Origin: a virus
IMG/VR virus record: IMGVR_UViG_3300043811_000028
Location: 1 to 34,842 of that record
Strand: one strand, 5' to 3'
Length of the DNA: 34,842 nucleotides
Made by a program: the position numbers and the translations under genes
Part shown: positions 19,985 through 20,467 of the stretch, in pieces
Numbering within the stretch: the stretch's first letter is position 1
How the letters are laid out: every line of letters starts with the position of its first letter
Notes under the pieces: model-generated
What the model was told of the DNA's origin: nothing
The model's database searches: none
What the model saw: the letters and a program-made list of their open reading frames with translations, nothing else

Positions 19985-20094
19985 GGCTCTCTAGCCATCT
20001 ATATCAATTGCTTTGATCATAGTATTCTCGGCCGAGTCAACAATCAGTAGAATCAATAAGTGACAACATACTTTCGCGCGTGTCATCGAGAGCC
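19985..20094 (-). ncRNA. RNA array domain D5 (acceptor-like stem plus ACCA)
   Basis: Closing stem GGCTCTC/GAGAGCC (7 bp, perfect), followed by ACCA at 19984-19981. Inside: TGACA/TGTCA, ATTCT/AGAAT, and a hairpin CTAT(G)ATCAA/TTGATATAG with a bulged G. Multibranched and 110 bases long, so too large for a plain tRNA, and no TTCRA T-loop is seen. Confidence 0.55.
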
Positions 20095-20104
20095 ATAAAC
20101 TGGT

Positions 20105-20170
20105 GCCCGATCTCTCTAAATCTTCATAGAAACATGTGGCCAACATTACTACTCATTAAAGAAATCGGGC
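20105..20170 (-). ncRNA. RNA array domain D4 (tRNA-sized, acceptor-like stem plus ACCA)
   Basis: Closing stem GCCCGAT/ATCGGGC (7 bp, perfect), followed by ACCA at 20104-20101. With ACCA it is 70 bases. A central hairpin ATGT(TGGCC)ACAT and TCTT/AAGA or TCTA/TAGA pairings are possible. No canonical D-loop GG, U33 or T-loop could be placed, so it is tRNA-like at the ends only. Confidence 0.55.
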
Positions 20171-20181
20171 ATAAAATTGGT

Positions 20182-20248
20182 GGCCTATTTTCCTTTGTCC
20201 GTTCTGTTTAATAGAGAGCTTCGTCCTCTCAACAAAGTATCGTCGGCC
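20182..20248 (-). ncRNA. RNA array domain D3 (GGCC stem plus ACCA)
   Basis: Closing GGCC/GGCC (4 bp; 5 of 7 if extended), then symmetrical 7-base strands, CTTTGT/ACAAAG (6 bp) and GAGAG/CTCTC (5 bp) with a 7-base loop. Followed by ACCA at 20181-20178. An elongated hairpin rather than a cloverleaf. Confidence 0.5.
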
Positions 20249-20257
20249 ATAAATCTT

Positions 20258-20380
20258 GCTGTGACTGTGTTCTCATCGTAGTTAGCTTGGAGAACTCTAC
20301 GCTATGCCTATGCATTTCGAGGCGTTACTCTCTCATCAGGCTTTAAATGCTAACCTAGACCTACCTATATCACTCACAGC
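20258..20380 (-). ncRNA. RNA array domain D2 enclosing the hammerhead
   Basis: Closing stem GCTGTGA/TCACAGC (7 bp, perfect) brackets the hammerhead ribozyme at 20281-20354. It is followed by AAGATTTAT, which resembles the TTTAT linkers after D3-D5 but lacks ACCA. Confidence 0.6.
20281..20354 (-). ncRNA. Hammerhead ribozyme, type I arrangement
   Basis: On the minus strand: stem I 5' strand GTTAGC...GC; core CTGATGA (20339-20333); stem II GAG/CTC with an 8-base loop; core GAA; stem III ATGC/GCAT closed by ATAG; then A17 and stem I 3' strand GC...GCTAAC. All core nucleotides (CUGAUGA, GAA, A15.1-U16.1, H17) are present. GTTAGC/GCTAAC gives six perfect outer pairs, with an internal loop in stem I, where hammerheads usually have tertiary contacts. 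Predicted cleavage is after A at 20303. Cleavage would separate the Tad2-like mRNA from the D3-D5 array and HNH mRNA, leaving a 5'-OH end on the latter. Stem II is short (3 bp), the main weakness. Confidence 0.85.
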
Positions 20381-20409
20381 TCGGGTAGGAAACGCTCGTT
20401 AAAATCTTA

Positions 20410-20467
20410 GGCGATAGATGCGGCTATCATATCACTCGAAGTAGTTTATGACAGGTGCACTATCGCC
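20410..20467 (-). ncRNA. RNA array domain D1 (long hairpin after the Tad2-like gene)
   Basis: GGCGATAG/CTATCGCC (8 bp) extended by TGC/GCA after a one-base bulge, then CTGTCAT/ATGATAG (7 pairs, one G-U) and a small apical stem. It begins 11 bases after the Tad2-like stop. TAAGATTTT follows, so it might act as a weak terminator or 3' stabiliser; the T-run is short and offset. No known self-cleaving core was found in it. Confidence 0.6.

Follow-up and report, generated by a model that had tools for sequence, protein, structure and literature searches.

A putative hammerhead ribozyme within a conserved pseudoknotted module of phage RNA arrays

An array of RNA modules between a Tad2-like and an endonuclease-family gene

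The window, that is, the whole stretch of 34,842 nucleotides analysed here, was taken to come from a P22-like phage in the preliminary description, and matches to P22_portal (PF16510) and P22_CoatProtein (PF11651) bear this out. Upstream of the portal gene, about five RNA modules, one of which is the hammerhead module, lie between a Tad2-like gene (20760-20479, minus strand; PF11195, E 3e-9) and a gene of an endonuclease family (phrog_2340, E 2.5e-22). This array is flanked on either side by minus-strand genes, and all modules and stems of the window described below are on that strand too. The Tad2-like neighbour had been recognized from the outset, whereas the HNH label given to the other gene was not confirmed, only the endonuclease family and no Pfam entry being matched. 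The Tad2-like gene is possibly a Thoeris counter-defence gene. The same PHROG (1048) was also matched weakly in another contig, L086, about 2 kb from its hammerhead.

Just after the Tad2-like gene, the fold of the 526-nt array delimits a first module with the stem GGCGATAG...CTATCGCC (20410..20467). The hammerhead module follows, and is adjoined by an element of the form TGGCC-GACGATA-C...G-GAAAATA-GGCCA (20181..20249). Next come a module with a tRNA-acceptor-like 7-bp end stem, GCCCGAT/ATCGGGC, and then ACCA (20105..20170; inverted repeat I1), and a module delimited by eye, GGCTCTC-GATGACACGCGCGAAAGT...GAGAGCC, likewise followed by ACCA (19985..20094). Several array modules end in a 7-bp stem and ACCA, resembling the acceptor end of a tRNA. 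The linkers between modules are short and AU-rich, (A)CCA(A/G)UUU(U)AU, at 20180-20171, 20104-20095 and 19984-19971 in the window, and are similar in other arrays. ARAGORN detected no tRNA in the window, the acceptor-like module at 20105..20170 included, and a tRNA reading of the 74-nt hammerhead span was rejected, as no cloverleaf was found by ARAGORN or RF00005 in the window. No ORF of at least 60 aa overlaps the hammerhead module in the window. The 526-nt non-coding array folds at -156.3 kcal/mol, with a z of -3.34 against shuffles; a 96-nt piece alone was no better than shuffles (z -0.01).

The GACGAUA/GAAAAUA element, of which 32 distinct copies were collected (window, L020, L025, L059, L063, L087-L108, L137 and L153), combines a 7/7 internal loop with an inner stem that covaries. 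Its inner-stem pairing was 159, against 127 (sd 5.8) in shuffles, where the maximum of 2000 was 145. No Rfam match to this element was found in the loci scanned. A coding reading of the GGCCGACGATACT element, as MADDT, was rejected: the loop lengths are spread over all three frames (15, 9 and 8 of the 32), so the frame is not kept and the reading arises by chance.

Two other modules were seen to recur. In one, GAUGRYACGCGCGAWAGU comes after a 7-bp end stem, whose 3' strand, preceded by CUAG, ends the module; its sites are 20094-19985 in the window, the minus strand of L087 just before the hammerhead module, and L171:484-592. Comparison by eye likewise found that modules similar to that at 19985..20094 precede the hammerhead in L087 and L171. 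The other, with a GGCGUGGACAGUGACACGC-like segment near its 5' end, occurs in the arrays of L096, L098, L099, L105 and L086.

A complete hammerhead core in type I order

All the hammerhead parts named in the preliminary description, together with the cleavage site, were located on the minus strand, and its statement that every core base is present was confirmed in the window sequence. The catalytic core (20303..20339) comprises CTGATGA (C3-A9; 20339-20333), GAA (G12-A14; 20318-20316) and an A at position H17 (20303). Between these lie stem II (GAG/CTC; 20332-20330/20321-20319) and stem III (ATGC/GCAT with the loop ATAG; 20315-20312/20307-20304). Stem I (20281..20354) consists of an outer and an inner helix with an asymmetric internal loop. 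The outer helix has the six pairs previously described (GTTAGC/GCTAAC; 20354-20349/20286-20281), but the inner helix of the window copy (GC/GC; 20341-20340/20302-20301) has only 2 bp and then an A.G mismatch. The predicted cleavage site, AUA^G, is at 20302..20303, after H17. A compact type I descriptor (CTGANGA, a 3-bp stem II, GAAA, a 4-bp stem III ending in U, H17 and a 2-bp inner stem I) matched once in the window and in none of 300 dinucleotide-preserving shuffles.

Homologues retain the core while the stems covary

A coat-protein search gave 80 related contigs, and blastn against these gave the first homologue, L059. Pattern scans of viral contigs added L087 and L084, the latter with the same module as L086, and the copy in L171 was found through the 5' accessory part of the module alone. 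With the window, these make five distinct copies; L002, L085 and L109, which are one contig and identical to the window at the hammerhead region, were not counted as distinct. Of the eleven stretches with the accessory-domain pattern, five (L169, L170 and L172-L174) were chance matches that carry no hammerhead, and so were L175 and L176. No match was obtained by blastn against cultured phages or by a pattern scan of genome contigs for the module, and a coat-protein scan returned two MAG contigs (Sulfuricurvum and Planctomycetota) that are too weak for naming a host. Covariance-model searches, which covered 50 complete contig records and relatives totalling about 1.5 Mb, gave no convincing further copies; the best other match to the module model was a weak one at L044/L045:20991-21096, minus strand (16.8 bits, E 0.014).

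By the core definition of PMC3088659, the core C3 U4 G5 A6 N7 G8 A9 / G12 A13 A14 / A15.1 U16.1 / H17 is complete in the window and in the four further homologues. Loss of core bases in close relatives, which the preliminary description had named as evidence against a ribozyme, was thus not seen, the thirteen core positions being kept in all four. The pairs beside the core (1.1-2.1, 10.1-11.1 and 15.1-16.1) are standard in the window, L059, L084 and L087. L171 has A.C at 10.1-11.1; Perreault et al. reject candidates by mispairing at 10.1-11.1 (PMC3088659). The cleavage triplets of the five copies are AUA, AUA, GUA, GUC and GUC, all of them NUH.

Across 29 pairs in six helices of the five sequences, 97.2% of the 145 cells are standard-paired, against 29-49% in controls with slid partners. 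Two-sided changes occur at 13 of the 29 pairs, a count reached by none of 500 shuffles, with the limits that five sequences make a small sample and that the shuffles ignore their kinship. Covariation was present in five of the six helices counted, and in P1 (see below), across five phages, and two-sided changes occur in outer stem I, stem II and stem III. Outer stem I is 100% paired, with two-sided changes at 4 of its 6 pairs, and its variants include GUUAGC/GCUAAC, GCUGCC/GGCAGC and GCCACC/GGUGGC. Stem III covaries around the invariant core as AUGC/GCAU, ACUA/UAGU, ACCC/GGGU and ACAU/AUGU. Inner stem I is 85% paired over the five sequences and is weakest in the window and L171. The hammerhead identity, first proposed from one sequence, is borne out by these homologues with their kept core and compensating stems, and comparison of the sequences leaves little doubt that the conserved element adopts a hammerhead fold.

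The hammerhead is embedded in a module of about 140 nt

The hammerhead is found at 20281-20354, the extent first given to it, but the conserved unit is larger. Alignment of the five distinct homologues delimits a module of about 140 nt (20258..20397) with a mean column identity of 83%. A covariance model of the module, R2, scores 153.9 bits in the window, which is one of its training sequences. The module is closed by P1, the enclosing 7-bp stem already noted in the preliminary description (GCTGTGA 20380-20374/TCACAGC 20264-20258); counted by hand, the five copies have five different P1 helices, complementary save for one mismatch in L171. P1 is crossed by P0 (CCTACC/GGTAGG; 20389-20384/20365-20360, spanning 20360..20389), which is 100% paired in the five sequences and varies as CCUACC/GGUAGG, CCUCUC/GAGAGG and CCUAUC/GAUAGG. 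A further pairing joins the 3' strand of the stem I internal loop (GTTCTC, 20295-20290) to the 3' tail (GAGAAC, 20274-20269); this GUUCUC/GAGAAC pairing becomes GUCUUC/GAAGAC in L171, with two-sided changes at two pairs. Because P0 and P1 cross, two pseudoknots surround the hammerhead in this module.

Outside the core, the segments GAGCGTTT, GGTCTAGG and CTACGATGA are conserved across the module alignment. Loop II, AGUAACGC, is identical in the window, L087 and L171, although stem II of L171 differs, and L059 and L084 have other loops. In natural fast-cleaving hammerheads, loop II makes a tertiary contact with a loop or bulge of stem I; a base-paired contact between stem I and loop II was not found in the five copies. 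A pairing of GAGCGUU with loop II AACGC was rejected, being possible in only three of the five.

Rfam searches and predicted folds

At gathering cut-offs, no Rfam family was matched anywhere in the window, and the Rfam hammerhead models gave no match in the window up to an E of 10. The covariance-model check proposed in the preliminary description therefore failed for the window copy, and L084 aligned, fully in register and sub-threshold, to RF02275 Hammerhead_HH9 (16.9 bits with a cut-off of 52, E 0.083). By cut-off, the module is outside every current Rfam hammerhead family (clan CL00010). Since L084, with its textbook core, also scores sub-threshold, the failure in the window is attributed to the limited reach of the models and not to a faulty core.

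The MFE of the window module is -32.8 kcal/mol for a non-hammerhead fold and -24.6 kcal/mol with the hammerhead forced, pseudoknots being unscored. The forced hammerhead lies above the MFE by 1.5 kcal/mol in L084 to 8.2 kcal/mol in the window, again with both pseudoknots unscored. The predicted MFE fold of the window pairs the stem II strand with GUUCUC, the segment that also partners the 3' tail; because the competing fold uses GUUCUC, formation of the covarying pseudoknot would remove that partner. A conserved on/off switch built on the pairing of the stem II strand with GUUCUC was rejected, this pairing being lost in L171.

The module is constant in arrays with differing gene settings

All five hammerhead copies are within arrays of RNA modules, in differing phage gene settings. 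The window and L059 copies are in the terL-to-capsid region; those of L086 (Sak4, SSB) and L087 (Sak4, Gam) are in regions of recombination genes. In L171, a near-consensus sigma-70 match (TTGAAA-16-TATAAT, 11/12) at 452-479 stands just before the first array module, and the array ends in a tRNA-Asn with no protein gene detected inside. The GACGAUA/GAAAAUA element, or a close variant, shares the array with four of the five hammerhead copies, whereas the L171 array has the tRNA-Asn and a GAUGGUACGCGCGAUAGU module instead. Such arrays often come with tRNAs or tRNA-like matches (L025, L059, L088, L093, L094, L100, L107 and L171).

Discussion

Hammerhead ribozymes cleave after H17, leaving a 2',3'-cyclic phosphate and a 5'-OH. 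By this established chemistry, the window RNA would self-cleave after A20303, with a 2',3'-cyclic phosphate at A20303 and a 5'-OH at G20302, and we consider such cleavage of the window copy likely. The pseudoknot and the outer stems probably stabilize an active form of the stem I loop and bias folding towards the hammerhead and away from competing hairpins. Of 18 hammerheads that conform to the consensus and were assayed in vitro, 14 were active (PMC3088659).

The context suggests that the hammerhead module forms one unit of a non-coding RNA array, in which tRNAs are often present; a cut within the array transcript may free ends from which single RNAs could be trimmed. That the module stays constant while the neighbouring genes change suggests that the ribozyme serves the array. 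The likeliest function of self-cleavage would thus be in processing of the array transcript, to which we give an even chance. The preliminary description had the 20303/20302 cut splitting the late transcript. This is less certain, as the site is enclosed in a closed and pseudoknotted module, which other phages carry outside the late region altogether. Because the cut would fall inside a closed module, the two halves may stay together, and they could be released only if P1 and outer stem I opened. Taken as a whole, the reading that we regard as probable is that of a self-cleaving hammerhead of type I topology within a larger conserved module, serving array processing.

The main rival, to which we give perhaps one chance in a few, is that the ribozyme partitions a polycistronic mRNA, cutting between the Tad2-like and upstream genes and the endonuclease, portal and structural genes to give them separate mRNA stabilities. 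The window array does lie between minus-strand genes on both sides, and hammerheads of prophages are often found flanking genes, the anti-restriction gene ardA among them (PMC3088659). Yet the module is not accompanied by the same neighbouring genes elsewhere, L086 and L087 having recombination genes, the L171 array has a promoter match of its own, and the outer stems would tend to keep both halves together.

It is improbable that the three-way-junction fold of the hammerhead has been kept as a non-cleaving structured RNA that serves the array as a binding module or decoy. The closed outer stems, the A.C at 10.1-11.1 in L171 and a conservation of the three segments outside the core that goes beyond hammerhead needs would suit this role, but all five copies, their helices varying, retain the NUH triplet and every catalytic position, G8 and G12 among them, and we know of no other demand that would preserve these. 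There is likewise little likelihood that the conserved pseudoknotted platform is a ligand, protein or RNA sensor gating cleavage: the invariant segments outside the core and the sharing of GUUCUC between the stem II strand and the 3' tail in the window MFE are consistent with regulation, but the competing pairing is lost in L171, whose stem II no longer matches GUCUUC, and a candidate ligand is lacking. A chance resemblance of an ordinary non-coding stretch to a hammerhead, which a short motif and a negative Rfam result in the window might suggest, is extremely improbable in view of the 0 matches in 300 shuffles and the covariation in five of six counted helices and P1 across five phages, and is in our view refuted by the homologues.

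The self-cleaving hammerhead favoured here shares with the type I class (clan CL00010) a complete core, three stems in type I order and an NUH triplet, the nearest model being RF02275 through the in-register, sub-threshold match of L084. Unlike Rfam hammerheads, it is embedded in a conserved module of about 140 nt with crossing P0 and P1. Hammerheads are already known in phages (PMC3088659, PMC6155905), and the bacterial and prophage hammerheads of Perreault et al. 2011 likewise combine a phage location with pseudoknots; theirs join stems I and II, whereas here the stem I internal loop is joined to the 3' tail (PMC3088659). A counter-defence gene is nearby in both cases, ardA there and a Tad2-like gene here, but the former hammerheads often occur as sets flanking protein genes and the present one stands singly among the non-coding RNA modules of an array (PMC3088659). 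Theta ribozymes, which are HDV-like and hence of a different class from the hammerhead, are also self-cleaving RNAs of phage tRNA/RNA clusters; they adjoin phage tRNAs, and a role in RNA processing has been proposed for them (PMC10879173), which makes them the closest precedent in function. They cut within +/-5 nt of tRNA 3' ends (PMC10879173), whereas the cut predicted here is inside its own module.

The module architecture, the family and the arrays were not found in Rfam or the open-licence literature, and an earlier description is possible. On the sequence comparison, the element is very probably a real ribozyme and an undescribed variant of the hammerhead. More tentatively, and with somewhat less than an even chance, environmental phages may carry an undescribed RNA-array system of small structured RNAs (tRNAs, acceptor-stem-like modules, the GACGAUA/GAAAAUA element and others) with short AU-rich linkers and a built-in, self-processing pseudoknotted hammerhead. 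Since this family is tied to a definable setting, RNA arrays with tRNAs and in one case a promoter match, and to no single protein gene, the biological role of such bacterial and phage hammerheads becomes testable. A hammerhead architecture missed by the current Rfam models suggests that more phage ribozymes remain undetected, and the family points to new structured RNA modules in phages.
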